This document shows, piece after piece, positions 1,190 through 46,822 of a stretch of 64,000 nucleotides of DNA (position 1 is its first letter; every line of letters starts with the position of its first letter). The stretch is taken from positions 682,001 through 746,000 of the forward strand of contig NZ_JADPQF010000002.1 of the NCBI RefSeq assembly GCF_015687155.1. The letters are read 5' to 3'. The stretch comes from Aliikangiella sp. G2MR2-5 (GTDB lineage Bacteria; Pseudomonadota; Gammaproteobacteria; Enterobacterales; Kangiellaceae). Under the pieces are notes generated by a model. The model saw only the letters and a list, made by a program, of their open reading frames with translations. It searched no databases and was not told the origin of the DNA. Made by a program: the position numbers and the translations under genes.

Positions 1190-4100
1190 TTATCTGTTTT
1201 TCGTCAACAAGGTTTTATCTGACATAATCTGATTTTCATTGGTCTTGCCAAACTGAAGAAGGCTCGGTAAAAAGATTAATGTAAAAATAGTACTAACACT
1301 CATACCGCCAACAATGACCGCCGCGATACCTCGATAAAGCTCTGCTCCCGCTCCAGGAACTAATAACAAAGGCAACATGCCACAGATACTTGTCAGTGTA
1401 CTCATTAAAATAGGCCGCAGCCTCAAACGTACGGCCTGTCGAACGGCTTCACGACGGGATAAGCCTTCACTTTCACCAATACGTGTTTGGTAAACCAGCA
1501 GGATGGCATTATTAACGACCAATCCCAACAAAATAATAAAACCGATCATCGTCAGAAGATCGAGTGGTTGAAAAATAATTTCATTGGTAATTCCCAGCAT
1601 ACCAAATCCGCCGATGGTCGCCAGAGGGATAGTTAAAACCACAAGCAAGCTATCTTTGAAAGATCGAAATAGCGCGGACATCAACAAGTAAAGAATAGCC
1701 AACGCAAGAATAAAACTCTGGCTCATATTAGCCAACGCTTGAGTTAATGCTTCAGCACTGCCGCGATAGGCAATGCTTCCATTGTCAGTCAGACTCGATA
1801 GAATGGCCGGCTCAGCTTTTTCCTGAATCAACTCAATGGCTTCTTCAAGACTAAGATTATCAGGAGGTGTCACCTGCAAAGTTATGGTTCGTTTGCGATC
1901 CACCCGGCGAATTGAACTTGGACCGGCCGTGCGCACTATGTCTACCAGCTCTCCTACCGGTTGCACGCCAGCTTGCGGAGTAAAAAGAGGAATAGCAGCC
2001 AATTCCTCTGGCGATTCCCAGTCTGTAGAACGAAGAAAAACATTCAATCGCTTTTGACCATTAAAGAATTCACCAACATACAGACCGGTACCCAATGCTC
2101 TTGATAAAGCTGCGACCTGTTGTCGTGTCCAGCCAGCCTCAGCGACTCGTCTTTCGTTGGGAACCATTCTTAGCTCAGGCTCAGCTAGCGTTAATCCAGG
2201 GGTCGGTTGAATACTGGCTCCAGGTAAAGCCTGACTGATCAACCCGTAACCAACACGTGCGGCCTGTAGAATTTCCTCAACCTGATTGCCCTGAATATCT
2301 ACATCTATTCGTCGTCCTCCTCCGAGGTTTTCAAATAGTTGAGCTTGCGATGCAAAAGCCATGGTATCAGGAAATCCGCGCAGTAAATCACTATTAACTA
2401 TGCCAACCACCTTTTGAATATCATTCGGATCCTCTGCTCTGCCCCCCATAAAACCAAAGTTACCAAAAAAGCCCATCCAGGTATGACGAATTTTAGGTTC
2501 TTTTTCGCCTTGTAAATAAGGCATAAGACGCCGATTGATTTCATCACTCATTTCAAAACGTGCTGCGAGATAGCTTTGTCCCGGCGGAGGCATTATAAAA
2601 GCTCGAAATTGATTTTGATTACCTTTGGGCAGGTAATCTACTTTGGGAAATAGTAACCAACTCCCAATAAATGATGCCGCCATTAGCCCGAGAACCCAGC
2701 TATAACGCTTGGCGGGCGTCGAAGTAATTTTCATTATGCCGTCAGTGATCCCTTGCCACCAATGTTCATGTGGATCTTCTTCGTTTACTTTCGTCAGTAA
2801 TTTTCGTGCTGCCGTCGGTAAAACAGTTACCGCGATCAAAAGAGAGGCAATAATGGCGACGGCAATGGTGATTGCCAAATCTGCAAAAAGCTGACCTGAA
2901 ACTTCTTCCAGAAAGGCGATGGGCAAAAAAATCGCCACGGTAGTAGCCGTTGAGGCAAGCAATGCCCCCCAAACCTGTGCTGCACCTTTAAAGGATGCAT
3001 CGTGTGGTGTTTCACCGTTTTCTCGTAATCGAACGATATTTTCCAGCACGACGATAGCAGCATCGAGAACCATTCCCACCGCAAACGCTAGTCCCGCCAT
3101 GGAAATAATATTGAGCGTACGACCGCTGGCATACATCACGATTAGAGTGACAATTATTGAAATAGGAATGGCTACTGCGACAATTAAAGTTGCACGGAAC
3201 TTTCTCAAGAACCACCAAAGAACAGCAATCGCCAAAAATATCCCGAGCATCAAATTATTTTTTACCAAGCTCATGGAACGATCAATATAAATCGATTGAT
3301 CATACATCTGAAATAAACGCAATTTCTCTCGTTTGAGTACGCCAGCATTTAATTCTTCAACCGCCGCTTTAAGGTTTTGCATAACCTCTACCACATTAAC
3401 ACCCTGTTCAGCCTGGGCATTCATTGCGATGGCAGGCTCGCCATCCAGCGTTAAAATCCCGGTTCTATCCTGGTGACGTAGCTCCACTATCGCTACATCT
3501 CGCAACAACACTGGCTGGCCATCTCTCCAATCGAGCACCATTTGCTGTAACTCTTCAACGCCGTACTTTCCGGAAAAACGCAAGGTATATTTGCGTCGTC
3601 CAACTTCATTAAAACCACCGGAAGAGTCTGTGTTATTGCTCAATGTTGCAGCAAGTGCAGGAATATTTAAGCCCAGCGCAGCGGCTTTATATGGATTGAA
3701 AGTAATCCGCAATTCAGATTGCAAACCACCAAAGGCATTGGTTTGAGAAATACCTTCTACCCGTTCAAGCCTAGTTTGCACTGCTTCTTCTACAAAATCC
3801 TGATAACTGGCAATATCTCTTTCATTCCCTTCCGCGGGCTTTAATGCAAACCACGCGATTGCGTTAAAAACACTGGCACCACCAACCGCAATTACCGGCT
3901 CACTCGCATCAGCAGGGTAGCTGGGAACCTGATTAAGTGCATTCATTACATCGATTAATGCGCGTTCCAGATTAACTCCTGTTTTATAGCGCAAGGTAAT
4001 TTGCCCGTTCGCCTGACTCGAAGTTGATTCTAACGAAACTAGTCCTTGAAGCCCTTTGAGAACATCTTCCTGACGCTCGATAATTTCTGACTCCATTTCT

Positions 4101-4270
4101 TCAGGAGCAGCGCCGCGCCAGCTGGTCGCAATCTGGATCATCGGTTGGCTAACATCTGGAGTTAGTTGAACAGGGAGTTTAAATAAACTGATAACGCCGA
4201 ACAAACCTGCCAGTAAAATCGCTACGATAACTGCAGTGGGGTTTTTGAGTGAAGCCGAAGTGAGCGTCAT
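1190..4270 (-). CDS. RND efflux pump, inner-membrane permease (HAE1/AcrB-like)
   Basis: 1026 residues, normal for AcrB-type proton-driven exporters that work as trimers with a periplasmic adaptor and an outer-membrane channel. The first transmembrane helix is at about 13-30, followed by a porter domain and the TM2-TM6 block at about 335-480 containing GMVLDAAIVVLENIVR. The second half repeats this layout, with TM10 reading GLVVNNAILLV and the RLRPILMSTLTS loop after it. Aligned by eye to AcrB, Asp407 is kept, Asp408 is Ala and Lys940 is Asn, a pattern found in some non-AcrB HAE1 branches. The adaptor gene lies 191 bases upstream on the same strand. No TolC-like gene is in the window. The substrate is unknown. 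Confidence 0.93.
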   Translation of the reverse strand: MTLTSASLKNPTAVIVAILLAGLFGVISLFKLPVQLTPDVSQPMIQIATSWRGAAPEEMESEIIERQEDVLKGLQGLVSLESTSSQANGQITLRYKTGVNLERALIDVMNALNQVPSYPADASEPVIAVGGASVFNAIAWFALKPAEGNERDIASYQDFVEEAVQTRLERVEGISQTNAFGGLQSELRITFNPYKAAALGLNIPALAATLSNNTDSSGGFNEVGRRKYTLRFSGKYGVEELQQMVLDWRDGQPVLLRDVAIVELRHQDRTGILTLDGEPAIAMNAQAEQGVNVVEVMQNLKAAVEELNAGVLKREKLRLFQMYDQSIYIDRSMSLVKNNLMLGIFLAIAVLWWFLRKFRATLIVAVAIPISIIVTLIVMYASGRTLNIISMAGLAFAVGMVLDAAIVVLENIVRLRENGETPHDASFKGAAQVWGALLASTATTVAIFLPIAFLEEVSGQLFADLAITIAVAIIASLLIAVTVLPTAARKLLTKVNEEDPHEHWWQGITDGIMKITSTPAKRYSWVLGLMAASFIGSWLLFPKVDYLPKGNQNQFRAFIMPPPGQSYLAARFEMSDEINRRLMPYLQGEKEPKIRHTWMGFFGNFGFMGGRAEDPNDIQKVVGIVNSDLLRGFPDTMAFASQAQLFENLGGGRRIDVDIQGNQVEEILQAARVGYGLISQALPGASIQPTPGLTLAEPELRMVPNERRVAEAGWTRQQVAALSRALGTGLYVGEFFNGQKRLNVFLRSTDWESPEELAAIPLFTPQAGVQPVGELVDIVRTAGPSSIRRVDRKRTITLQVTPPDNLSLEEAIELIQEKAEPAILSSLTDNGSIAYRGSAEALTQALANMSQSFILALAILYLLMSALFRSFKDSLLVVLTIPLATIGGFGMLGITNEIIFQPLDLLTMIGFIILLGLVVNNAILLVYQTRIGESEGLSRREAVRQAVRLRLRPILMSTLTSICGMLPLLLVPGAGAELYRGIAAVIVGGMSVSTIFTLIFLPSLLQFGKTNENQIMSDKTLLTKNR

Positions 4271-4461
4271 ATAAAGTTCCGAATAATTTTTTAGTATCTA
4301 TTTCTTGCGGTGTATCGACTTACGGCAGTCTATCGATTTGTAGCAATCAATTTATTCAAGACAGGCACACTACTTGAACTATACCTTGCGAAAAATACTT
4401 CAATATCGTTAATTGTTTAAAGCTTAAAAGTGACAAATTTTCTTTTGAGTAGCTGTCTATA

Positions 4462-42696: not shown

Positions 42697-45075
42697 CTAG
42701 GACAGCAGTTGACTAATTCGTTGCCCCAGCTCATCGCCGTCAATTGGTTTGGAGAGGTAATCATTCATTCCTGCCGATAAACACTTTTCCTTATCCCCTG
42801 ACATGGCATTAGCTGTCAGGGCGATAATAGGAATATCGCTATTATTATTTCCAGCAAGACCTTCACGAATGTGTTTGGTCGCTTCATAGCCATCCATTTC
42901 AGGCATCTGACAATCCATTAATATCAAATCATAATTTTTATGTTGGAGAGTCTCGAGTGCCTTAACACCATTCTCCGCCACGTCTGCCTTAATTCCAAGT
43001 TCATCCAGCATCAAAAGTGCAACCTCACGATTGAACGGATTATCCTCGACTAGCAAAATTTCACATTGCTTCAACTTTATTTCATTACTGTTATTTGCAG
43101 TTTTGCTAACTTCCTGAGCTTCACTTTCGGGAGATTCAAGTAGTACTTCGAACCTGAAACAGCTACCTTCATTTTCCTTGGACTCCGCATATATATCACC
43201 ACTCATCAGCTGACAAAGACGCTTGGAAATAGCCAGCCCCAAACCTGAGCCACCATACTTTCGAGTGGTACTGGCGTCCACCTGAGTAAATGGCGTAAAC
43301 AGCTGCTCAAGCTTTTCCTGAGGGATACCAATGCCTGTGTCACTCACGCTCACACTTAGTCGCCATCGTCCAAGATCGCCCTGAACCTTGTACTTAATGT
43401 CAATTCCACCTCGTTTGGTGAATTTAAGCGCGTTGCCTATCAAGTTGGTCATGATTTGGCGAATGCGAAAAGCATCACCTCTCAATCGGGTTTGTTCAAT
43501 CTGTAAAGGTGATAAGGTCAAAGTCAGGTTTCGTTCCTCTGACTGTATCCGGAAAGATTCGGTCAAGTTTTCAAGGAGAGTGCAAACATCAAAATCTTTA
43601 TGGTCTAGCGCCAGCTTTCCGGCATCAATGCGAGAAAAATCCAATATATCATTAATGATCCCGAGCAAGAATTCAGCGCTACAACGCGCAATCCCAACTT
43701 TGTGTAACTGCTCATCATTTAGTTCGCTTTTGGCCAATAAATTAATCATACCCAAAATGCCGTTCATGGGAGTACGAATCTCATGACTCATAGTAGCGAG
43801 AAATTCCGACTTGGCTTTTACCGCCTGGTTTGCCGCCTCAGCACTTTCAATTAGGCGCTGTTCATTCTTTTTACGTTCGCTGATATCTTCTACCAATGAC
43901 CAGATATATTGCTTACCATCGGTACCTTTTACTAGCACGCCGTTAAGTAATACAGGGTAGCGAGTCCCGTCTTTTTTGATATATTCTTTTTCATAAGGTC
44001 CATATCTGCCTTGTGTTTTAAGTAGATTAAGTTGCTCTGTTTCCTGTTCCTGATACTCAATTGGCGTAATATCCCAGTAAGAAAGGCTGGCAAACTCTTC
44101 TTTGGAATAGCCTGCAGGTTCATAAAGAGCTGCATTAAGCTCAATAAAGTCGCCGCTTTCAAAATCATTCAGAGCAATACCGATAGGAGAAAGATCGAAT
44201 AGAGCCTTTAGTCTCTGCCGCTCCAGATTAAGGCTAGTGTTCTTTTGGCTAATCATAATCATTTGCCAGATAAGCAATGTGAGTATAGATATGAAAAATG
44301 CTCTTATAACCCACGAGATGGCTGAGTTTTTTGACCAACCATTTTTAGGGACGGCAGCTATTTTCCAGCGCCCATTCGGGAAGATAACTTCCGAAAAAAC
44401 CGGTTTTTGCATAAGAATCGAATCATCACCGAAAAATACATTATCAGCTTGATCCAGTTCACTTTTGGCGAGCACAAGAGTTATCGGTGATGTCTCATCT
44501 TTTAAACCACTGGCACGGTAAAATTCCTGCAGGTCAATCACTGTAGAGATTAATCCCCAGAATCGTCCCTCTTCTCCAGACTCATTGTAGAGATAGACCG
44601 GGATACGACCGATTAATGCTTCCCCTCCCTGAACAAGGTTTACTGGCCCATCCAGAATAATATCCCTGGTATCTCTGGCCCGATAAGCTGCCGCTCGTTG
44701 TGCTTCGTTTTTATTAAAGTCCAGCCCAATGGCTTTCTCATTCCCTTCTAATGGATACATCAGACTAATAATCAGATCAGGCGCTGCACCAACATTTCTT
44801 ATTTGGTCATGACCTGCTAATAATGGCCGCGTGTAGTTGGCAAACCTTTCCTGATTGAGCTCAGGTTCATTGGCGATAAGCCCCACCAGTCCGCGAACGG
44901 TCTGCAAATTACTCTGGATATTGCCCTCCAGCTTTGCGCGGATAATATTGAGCTCATTGACCACGACCTGCCGTTGATTTTGATAATGATTTTCTCGACT
45001 AATATAATCGGCATAGACGCCTACCCCCGCCAGAGCGATTAGAATAAATACAAATATGAGGCGATTGTTGAGCAT
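42697..45075 (-). CDS. CHASE-domain hybrid sensor histidine kinase
   Basis: 792 residues from the ATG at 45075; a TTG 15 codons earlier is possible, and neither has a strong ribosome site. Order: transmembrane helix (about 8-25), periplasmic CHASE domain (about 60-225, NVGAAPDLIISLMYPLEGNEKAIGLD), second helix (about 255-275), PAS/PAC (about 285-410), HisKA with H431 (TMSHEIRTPMNG), ATPase (NLIGNALKFTKRGG, GSGLGLAISKRL), and receiver with D721 (LILMDCQMPEMDGYE). CHASE domains sense small extracellular molecules. No partner Hpt or regulator lies adjacent, so phosphotransfer is through genes elsewhere. Confidence 0.93.
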   Translation of the reverse strand: MLNNRLIFVFILIALAGVGVYADYISRENHYQNQRQVVVNELNIIRAKLEGNIQSNLQTVRGLVGLIANEPELNQERFANYTRPLLAGHDQIRNVGAAPDLIISLMYPLEGNEKAIGLDFNKNEAQRAAAYRARDTRDIILDGPVNLVQGGEALIGRIPVYLYNESGEEGRFWGLISTVIDLQEFYRASGLKDETSPITLVLAKSELDQADNVFFGDDSILMQKPVFSEVIFPNGRWKIAAVPKNGWSKNSAISWVIRAFFISILTLLIWQMIMISQKNTSLNLERQRLKALFDLSPIGIALNDFESGDFIELNAALYEPAGYSKEEFASLSYWDITPIEYQEQETEQLNLLKTQGRYGPYEKEYIKKDGTRYPVLLNGVLVKGTDGKQYIWSLVEDISERKKNEQRLIESAEAANQAVKAKSEFLATMSHEIRTPMNGILGMINLLAKSELNDEQLHKVGIARCSAEFLLGIINDILDFSRIDAGKLALDHKDFDVCTLLENLTESFRIQSEERNLTLTLSPLQIEQTRLRGDAFRIRQIMTNLIGNALKFTKRGGIDIKYKVQGDLGRWRLSVSVSDTGIGIPQEKLEQLFTPFTQVDASTTRKYGGSGLGLAISKRLCQLMSGDIYAESKENEGSCFRFEVLLESPESEAQEVSKTANNSNEIKLKQCEILLVEDNPFNREVALLMLDELGIKADVAENGVKALETLQHKNYDLILMDCQMPEMDGYEATKHIREGLAGNNNSDIPIIALTANAMSGDKEKCLSAGMNDYLSKPIDGDELGQRISQLLS

Positions 45076-45284
45076 ATAGGCTATCAGCCATCCACTAGTT
45101 TCAGGGCGAGGACTGTTCAAAGTATAGTTAGCATTCTGTTATTTTTCGAAGATAGCATGACTTCTTGGCGCAATAGTTATCGAAAAATCTCCCGCCTATA
45201 GTACGGAATCTATTAAATTCGGAATCAACCACTGTGGAGAAACAAGAAATATGTTATTTTCGAGAATCTTTAAAGAGCTCAGGT

Positions 45285-45356
45285 ATGATTAATACCAATA
45301 TTATTAATACCGACGCCATTGATACTGACTTTATTAGTAACGACTTCGACCTATGA
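45285..45356 (+). CDS. 23-residue leader ORF overlapping the M20 peptidase start
   Basis: ATG 45285 with AAAGAG seven bases upstream opens 23 codons that end in a TGA sharing bases with the next ATG (ATGA at 45353-45356). The peptide is made of four five-residue units (INTNI, INTDA, IDTDF, ISNDF) and is acidic and not membrane-like. The M20 gene lacks its own ribosome site, so this ORF probably delivers ribosomes to it. Function otherwise unknown. Confidence 0.5.
   Translation: MINTNIINTDAIDTDFISNDFDL
45288..45347 (+). repeat. Four tandem imperfect 15-base repeats inside the leader ORF
   Basis: Units are ATTAATACCAATATT, ATTAATACCGACGCC, ATTGATACTGACTTT and ATTAGTAACGACTTC. All start with ATT and keep the reading frame, so each encodes five residues of the pattern I-x-T/N-D/N-x. 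Copy number could change in steps of 15 bases without a frameshift. Confidence 0.7.
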
Positions 45357-46822
45357 AAAAACTGATATTTTTATTGCTAGTTGTAATCCTGCTTGGCTAC
45401 GTTACTCTCTATAAATTATCGACTGAATTTCCTGATCGTCAATATCATCCCAAGGCTCAGCCCAAATTGCTGAGTGTAGATAACGCCAAAGTCGCTGAGC
45501 GGCTTAGCTCGGCGATTCAAATCCAAACGATTTCTCGGGATGAGTCTGAGCCGACAAGCGACGCATTTATTCAATTCCATCAACTACTGATGGAAAAATT
45601 CCCTTTAGTTCACCAACATGCCCAAAAGGAAGTTATTAATCAGTACAGCCTGATATACCACTTTCCCGGTAGCGACACTCTACTAGCACCCGTATTATTC
45701 ATGGGCCACATGGATGTTGTACCTGTTGATGAAGCAACTCTGGACCAATGGTCCCACCCTCCCTTTTCTGGAAAAATCTCAAATGGCAAAATTTGGGGGC
45801 GCGGTGCGTTAGATGATAAATCGACTGTAATGGCAATAATGGAAGCCATGGAAGCTCAACTGGCAGAAGGTAAGAAACCAGTAAGAAGCGTTTATTTTGC
45901 TTTTGGTCACGATGAAGAAACTGGCGGTGAAAACGGAGCTAAAGTCAGTGCAGAATATTTTCGAAAAAAAGGTATTCGATTTGAGTTTGTACTCGATGAA
46001 GGTGGCGCTGTTGTCCAGGACGTCGTAAAAGGTTTTAAACAACCCGTTGCATTGATTGGAATCGGCGAAAAGGGATTTGTTAATGTTCGCATGACTGTCA
46101 ATGCTGCTGGCGGTCACTCCTCAATGCCTCCGGATCATACCGCAGCGGGAATATTAGCCCAGGCGATTGTCAAACTTGAAACCAGTCCTTTTCCGGCGGA
46201 TCTTCAATTTACTCGTTTAACCTTTAAACAGATTGGACACTATGCCGATTTAACAACACGTCTCATTATGTCTAATCTTTGGCTAACTGAGCCGCTGGTT
46301 AAAGCAACACTTGCACAATCACCAAGCAGTGCTGCAGCCATTCGTACCAGCACCGCAGTCACTATGCTAAAGGGAAGTAGTAAGTCCAACATTCTTCCCA
46401 CACAAGCACAAGCTGTAGCAAACTTTAGAATCTTTCCCGGTGAAACGACTCAAAGTGTATTAGCTCATGTTACCAAAGCAATTGATGACTCTAGAGTAAA
46501 GCTCGAAATGTTTATGCAGAAAAATCCTTCGCCGGTCTCGCCAATTGATGTAAAGCCCTACCACTTGATAGAAGAGTCTATACGTGAAATTTCACCAGAG
46601 ATATTAGTCGCCCCCTATCTTGTTTTAGGAGGAACTGACGCCAAACATTTCTATGATCTTTCAAATAATGTCTACCGTTTTCTAATGGTCAGGTTAACAC
46701 CAGATACACTCGATTCAGTCCACGGCATCAACGAGAGTATCGCAGTTGAAGACTATGTGAAGGCTATCCAGTACTTCCACCGACTGCTAGATAAGTCTGT
46801 CTTTCTCGATGCGGGTTTCTAA
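45353..46822 (+). CDS. M20-family metallopeptidase (carboxypeptidase S/PM20D1-like)
   Basis: 489 residues with an N-terminal membrane helix (about 4-20). The two-zinc site is complete: GHMDVVP, then GRGALDDKS with the bridging Asp, DEETGG with the catalytic and ligand Glu, LDEGG and the final GGTDAKHF His. The lid domain at about 240-360 contains GHSSMPP. The length of 489 fits the carboxypeptidase S/PM20D1 group that cleaves small peptides or N-acyl amino acids. The ATG at 45353 has no Shine-Dalgarno sequence and overlaps the stop of a short upstream ORF. Its stop overlaps the convergent LytTR gene by four bases. Confidence 0.92.
   Translation: MKKLIFLLLVVILLGYVTLYKLSTEFPDRQYHPKAQPKLLSVDNAKVAERLSSAIQIQTISRDESEPTSDAFIQFHQLLMEKFPLVHQHAQKEVINQYSLIYHFPGSDTLLAPVLFMGHMDVVPVDEATLDQWSHPPFSGKISNGKIWGRGALDDKSTVMAIMEAMEAQLAEGKKPVRSVYFAFGHDEETGGENGAKVSAEYFRKKGIRFEFVLDEGGAVVQDVVKGFKQPVALIGIGEKGFVNVRMTVNAAGGHSSMPPDHTAAGILAQAIVKLETSPFPADLQFTRLTFKQIGHYADLTTRLIMSNLWLTEPLVKATLAQSPSSAAAIRTSTAVTMLKGSSKSNILPTQAQAVANFRIFPGETTQSVLAHVTKAIDDSRVKLEMFMQKNPSPVSPIDVKPYHLIEESIREISPEILVAPYLVLGGTDAKHFYDLSNNVYRFLMVRLTPDTLDSVHGINESIAVEDYVKAIQYFHRLLDKSVFLDAGF

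Follow-up and report, generated by a model that had tools for sequence, protein, structure and literature searches.

Organisation of the locus

The window, which is the whole stretch of DNA that was analysed (64,000 nucleotides), belongs to a genome of 5.0 Mb. The locus consists of an M20 family peptidase gene, a histidine kinase gene that is divergent from it, and an intergenic region with a short open frame, the putative leader, directly before the peptidase. The features are shown in Table 1. The putative leader runs from the ATG at 45285 to the TGA at 45354-45356 and encodes the peptide MINTNIINTDAIDTDFISNDFDL. The TGA of this frame and the ATG of the peptidase (45353) overlap in the bases ATGA (45353-45356), which is the stop/start overlap looked for in coupled genes. 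The frame of the leader also extends upstream to a GTG at 45234, giving 40 codons. The first-pass annotation of this DNA had described a 23-codon frame that overlaps an M20 peptidase by ATGA, and this arrangement is present in the sequence, with the peptidase family identified by its Pfam match.

Table 1. Features of the peptidase locus, with coordinates given in the window.
Feature	Coordinates	Strand	Basis and remarks
CHASE-PAS hybrid histidine kinase, divergent	42697..45120	-	Bounds the intergenic region 45121-45352
Sigma-70-like site TCGAGA-18-TATGAT	45260..45289	+	9 of 12, consensus match only
Weak stretch AAAGAG resembling a ribosome site, 7 bases 5' of the leader ATG	45272..45277	+	One mismatch to AAGGAG
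Inverted repeat GGTAT-N5-ATACC around the leader ATG	45282..45296	+	RNA hairpin, -5.2 kcal/mol
Putative leader, 23-codon open frame ending in the ATGA overlap	45285..45356	+	Sequence and ORF reading; codon score gene-like; not conserved
Four 15-base repeat units, imperfect (pairwise 9-11 of 15 alike)	45288..45347	+	Lag-15 matching; below the Tandem Repeats Finder threshold
M20 family peptidase, 489 aa, N-terminal hydrophobic segment	45353..46822	+	PF01546, E 1.1e-34

The top NCBIfam match of the peptidase is PRK08262.1-4, which lies under the cut-off of that model. The ATGAAAAAA start of the peptidase is shared with its closest homologue (60% identical) and is thereby supported. A relative from the same genus (G001) has a homologue of the peptidase on a contig of 8010 bases. 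The peptidase and a convergent LytTR-domain gene overlap tail-to-tail by 4 bases (window 46819-46822). No close orthologue of the divergent kinase was found in the 6 other genomes of the genus, which gave one partial match (46%).

A second tiny frame, MLFSRIFKELRYD, was identified on the plus strand at 45251-45292 of the window. It begins with the ATG at 45251, has GGAG 11 bases 5' of that ATG, and overlaps the start of the leader. This frame, the leader, and the peptidase may be linked in a series of three frames, each overlapping the next, or the arrangement could be due to chance.

The 15-base repeat

The repeat units, counted from 45288, are ATTAATACCAATATT, ATTAATACCGACGCC, ATTGATACTGACTTT, and ATTAGTAACGACTTC. 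Matches at lag 15 across the four units amount to 30/45. When the codons of the leader were permuted, the observed matches were reached in 13/20000 permutations at lag 15 and in 58/20000 at any lag of 6-27. Within the window, no further block equals the leader at lag 15, and a single one does when all lags of 6-30 are admitted. Windows simulated with an order-2 Markov model (30 windows) contain 0.03 such blocks per 64 kb. The peptide encoded by the leader also shows an amino-acid period of 5 that was equalled in 3/100000 permutations. The target is second in periodicity out of 173 sampled 90-base upstream regions in this genome, which is a little unusual.

Tandem Repeats Finder, run with a minimum score of 30, did not report the array. 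At the same threshold, 404 kb of this genome gave 18 rows, which were merged by hand to 12 distinct arrays, or about one per 34 kb; the real genome sequence is richer in arrays at this threshold than the simulated sequence. The 15-base period is beyond chance, but it is weak. The claim that the leader is made almost wholly of tandem 15-base repeats is therefore right as to the period and overstated in its wording, because the units are just 9-11 of 15 alike. Near-identical units that are prone to slippage, as in contingency loci, were likewise not found here, and units as diverged as these would slip less readily than perfect repeats. The comparison of the repeat within the species covers the one available genome, in which the leader has no second copy.

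Other arrays were observed in this genome. At locus L097 (14234-14300), a minus-strand gene start is immediately preceded by an imperfect 13-base array (TATCCAGAAATTT-like when read on the minus strand), and the region of this array is the sole one of the 173 upstream regions that is more periodic than the target. In L100 (15428-15500), a 17-base array of roughly three GAGCATACTTCTGGATT copies separates two plus-strand frames and closely precedes the second. The L097 and L100 arrays may be regarded as further tandem-repeat relics: they resemble the target in being imperfect, in unit length, and in lying close before gene starts, whereas they differ from it in sequence. L109 has a 15-base repeat at 3494-3550, where a minus-strand frame has its 5' end; each copy, as judged by eye, includes an ATG together with GAGAGG, which resembles a ribosome site, and the pattern looks like an in-frame duplication of the start region. 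An imperfect 18-base repeat is located in the window at 4294-4356, just upstream of a minus-strand frame of 1026 codons (1190-4270). Repeats of 15 bases also occur inside long minus-strand open frames in L098 (11717-11830; 871 codons) and L104 (5489-5550; 583 codons). The L098 repeat has several near-perfect copies, and both repeats encode, as judged by eye, acidic repeats of five residues.

Coding character of the frame

The codon score of the leader is 1.97, which is gene-like when set against gene segments (mean 1.87, sd 2.19). Open intergenic stretches that score as high as the leader amount to 6.8%, so the leader exceeds 93% of them. The same frame upstream of the leader ATG scores -1.2. 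The differences between the repeat units number 11, 9, and 10 at codon positions 1, 2, and 3. They are not biased over codon positions and give no sign of selection on the peptide. Two of the three frames are free of stops through the repeats. Since a second frame is also open across the whole array, the openness follows from the repeat itself. The evidence on a selected peptide is thus split.

For the 23- and 40-residue versions of the leader, Pfam gave nothing at E up to 10. On this result the leader was rejected as a fragment of a pentapeptide-repeat protein and as any other known small protein. Searches for leader-like peptides in 196 other genomes of the order gave nothing better than E 0.26, and the matches in 6/196 at E 0.26-0.93 were taken as chance.

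Ribosome sites and the frequency of the ATGA arrangement

The longest exact match of the leader ribosome site to the anti-Shine-Dalgarno complement is 3 bases (TAA by script, GAG by eye). The peptidase's own site has a match of the same length (TAA). It had been stated that the peptidase has no ribosome site of its own while the upstream frame has one. The second half of this statement is weak, as the exact match before the leader is no longer than the 3 bases of the peptidase.

The frequency of this anatomy in the genome was counted on crude gene calls that consist of long open frames. Two start rules were used, and their biases on the number of ribosome sites are opposed. Under the first-ATG rule, which gave 163 isolated genes with the target included, 77/163 genes start with ATGA. 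Fifteen of these 77 have a frame of 15-60 codons that ends in the overlap. In 13/77 such a frame is accompanied by a ribosome-site match that equals or exceeds that of the leader in length, with five of the 13 frames started by ATG, and in seven of the ATGA genes with such a frame the gene's own site is also below 4 bases. Under the rule that favours ribosome sites, ATGA starts number 100/213, and 18 of these have such a frame, 16 a frame with such a site, and three a frame together with an own site below 4 bases. The target's own start is not picked by the latter rule, so the target is counted under the first-ATG rule only. Genes whose own ribosome site is below 4 bases number 102/163 under the first-ATG rule and 60/213 under the rule that favours ribosome sites. 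Among the homologues described below, 16/36 have no clear ribosome site.

The ATGA overlap is automatic, because a gene that starts with ATGA offers a TGA to any frame that precedes it. The anatomy of coupling is hardly special in this genome. The earlier proposal that the leader is coupled to the peptidase therefore keeps its anatomy, but every argument for coupling can be accounted for here by something commonplace, given the 13/77 ATGA genes with a comparable frame and site and the 102/163 genes with a similarly poor site.

Homologues of the peptidase

The homologue set consists of 36 upstream regions, namely that of L003 and those of 35 of 55 loci. Twenty loci were dropped: L038 duplicates L003, and the other 19 are distant, with identities of no more than 44%. 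The minus-strand matches L005-L008 and L010 are outside all counts, as is everything else from the search that gave L003, apart from L003 itself. The starts of the homologues were set by hand at an ATGAAR/ATGAGA start.

An array at the score of the window was found in 0/36 homologue upstream regions, and the closest homologue has no leader-like frame. Conservation of the leader among relatives, which would support coupling and is not required for it, was thus observed in 0/36. Some frame of 8-60 codons that ends in ATGA is present in 10/36 homologues, which we take as the chance yield of ATGA starts. The DNA of the leader and of the intergenic region gave chance-level matches only (best E 0.004) in 39 other genomes of the family, members of the genus included.

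The hexamer TATACT was found within bases -71 to -16 in 21/36 homologues, compared with a mean of 1.0 and a maximum of 4 in 200 rounds of shuffling, although many of the 36 come from one genus, Paraglaciecola, and the 21 cases are not independent. The distance from the end of TATACT to the ATG is 24-43 bases, and the 5' regions of the homologues hence leave little room for a leader. The homologues seem to have short 5' regions with no coupled leader. The homologues that carry TATACT have a ATGAAAAAA-type start, often with TAAG as the sole ribosome site.

Promoter-like site and RNA structure

Before the peptidase, in 45050-45352, the plus strand has a single sigma-70-like site, TCGAGA-18-TATGAT. 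Its -10 hexamer, TATGAT at 45284-45289, contains the ATG of the leader. On both strands, 4 sigma-70-like sites were found, compared with 1.5 (sd 1.3) in shuffles. An alignment places this -10 box in the TATACT columns of the homologues, and its distance to the peptidase ATG is 63 bases, which is longer than the distance in the homologues. If this site is a promoter, the start of the leader is off the message. The start of the leader may thus lie outside the transcript, which is a lead from sequence matching and not proof.

The hairpin of the inverted repeat has a z of -1.37, and 24/200 shuffles are as good. Shuffled sequences fold as well as the 5' region does (z -0.54), and a stable RNA structure at the leader was rejected on that ground. 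No Rfam element was found above its gathering score; the best match (E 0.51) is far below it. No terminator-like site was found on the plus strand in 45050-45450.

Discussion

The array is probably the diverged relic of a short tandem repeat in the 5' region of the peptidase, in which the open frame is incidental. The frame of 23 codons would be a by-product of the repeat, whose 15-base unit holds one frame open throughout its length, and a gene that starts with ATGA would always supply a TGA to whatever frame precedes it. Translation of the peptidase would most likely begin at its own ATGAAAAAA start, behind a leader rich in A and U, and a Shine-Dalgarno (SD) interaction would contribute little or nothing; such an SD-poor start would match those of many homologues. 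Transcription may begin at or downstream of the leader ATG, in which case the leader would presumably go untranslated. The gene-like codon score of the leader and its amino-acid period count against the relic, as do a promoter-like site that matches only 9 of 12 positions and the longer distance from the -10 box to the ATG.

A coupled leader is the first alternative to be weighed. Ribosomes would load at 45285, translate the leader, stop at ATGA, and re-initiate on the peptidase, and the translation of the leader would set the output. The frame, its overlap, the weak AAAGAG stretch, and the codon score are all consistent with this mechanism, and AUGA coupling of an SD-less gene is already known elsewhere. 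In uPPE2-PPE2 of Mycobacterium tuberculosis, expression of an SD-less gene depends strictly on an upstream frame that overlaps it by AUGA (PMC11260477). That upstream frame was shown to be translated, has an SD whose importance was established by mutation, and is preceded by a B12 riboswitch (PMC11260477). The target resembles that pair in having a short upstream frame that overlaps an SD-less gene by AUGA, but it differs in its weak site, in the lack of an Rfam element, and in a leader that is putative and known from sequence alone. Termination-reinitiation coupling, strict in its dependence, was likewise found in 13/14 overlapping gene pairs tested (PMC6728339). The ATGA pairs among them have the four-base stop/start overlap of the target; those pairs are annotated genes, whereas the upstream frame of the target has 23 codons and is not conserved. 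We regard the coupled leader as doubtful, because its ribosome site is no longer than that of the peptidase, its start is partly enclosed by a hairpin and falls within the -10 box of a promoter-like site, none of the 36 homologues has the array, and the anatomy is common in the genome. The fuller version, in which a translated, frame-preserving array once varied in unit number and re-initiation at ATGA sets the amount of the SD-less peptidase, is very unlikely. A leader that is translated, coupled, and tuned by copy number is not needed to explain the locus and is poorly supported.

The repeats might instead act as nucleic acid, either as mRNA sites for a regulator or for ribosomal protein S1 before an SD-less start, or as a DNA operator over the promoter at GGTAT-N5-ATACC. 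A real period with no bias over codon positions would suit such a role, as would an inverted repeat that covers the -10-like box. A precedent comes from marine Beggiatoaceae, in which TAACTGA direct repeats lie immediately upstream of starts and are proposed to have a role in translation (PMC4679880). Both cases have short direct repeats just before a start that lacks a clear ribosome site; in the Beggiatoaceae a single heptamer makes up 169 sets of repeats within one genome, whereas the target is a single array of diverged 15-mers. The lack of conservation in the homologues, the Rfam and folding results, and the lack of a second leader copy in the genome speak against this role, which we judge to be rather improbable. 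An attenuation leader that responds to amino acids and governs the peptidase is suggested by a peptide rich in Ile, Asn, Asp, and Thr, and it is scarcely credible in view of the missing terminator-like site, the overlap of stop and start that leaves no space for a terminator between leader and gene, and the lack of conservation.

With the relic of a tandem repeat as the preferred reading, chance is expected to give ATGA overlaps with short open frames wherever a gene starts with ATGA, and conservation or ribosome data are needed before such overlaps are read as coupling. If the leader were translated and coupled after all, it would be another natural example of a tiny frame that feeds ribosomes to an SD-less gene, and its modular repeat could vary in length while keeping the frame.
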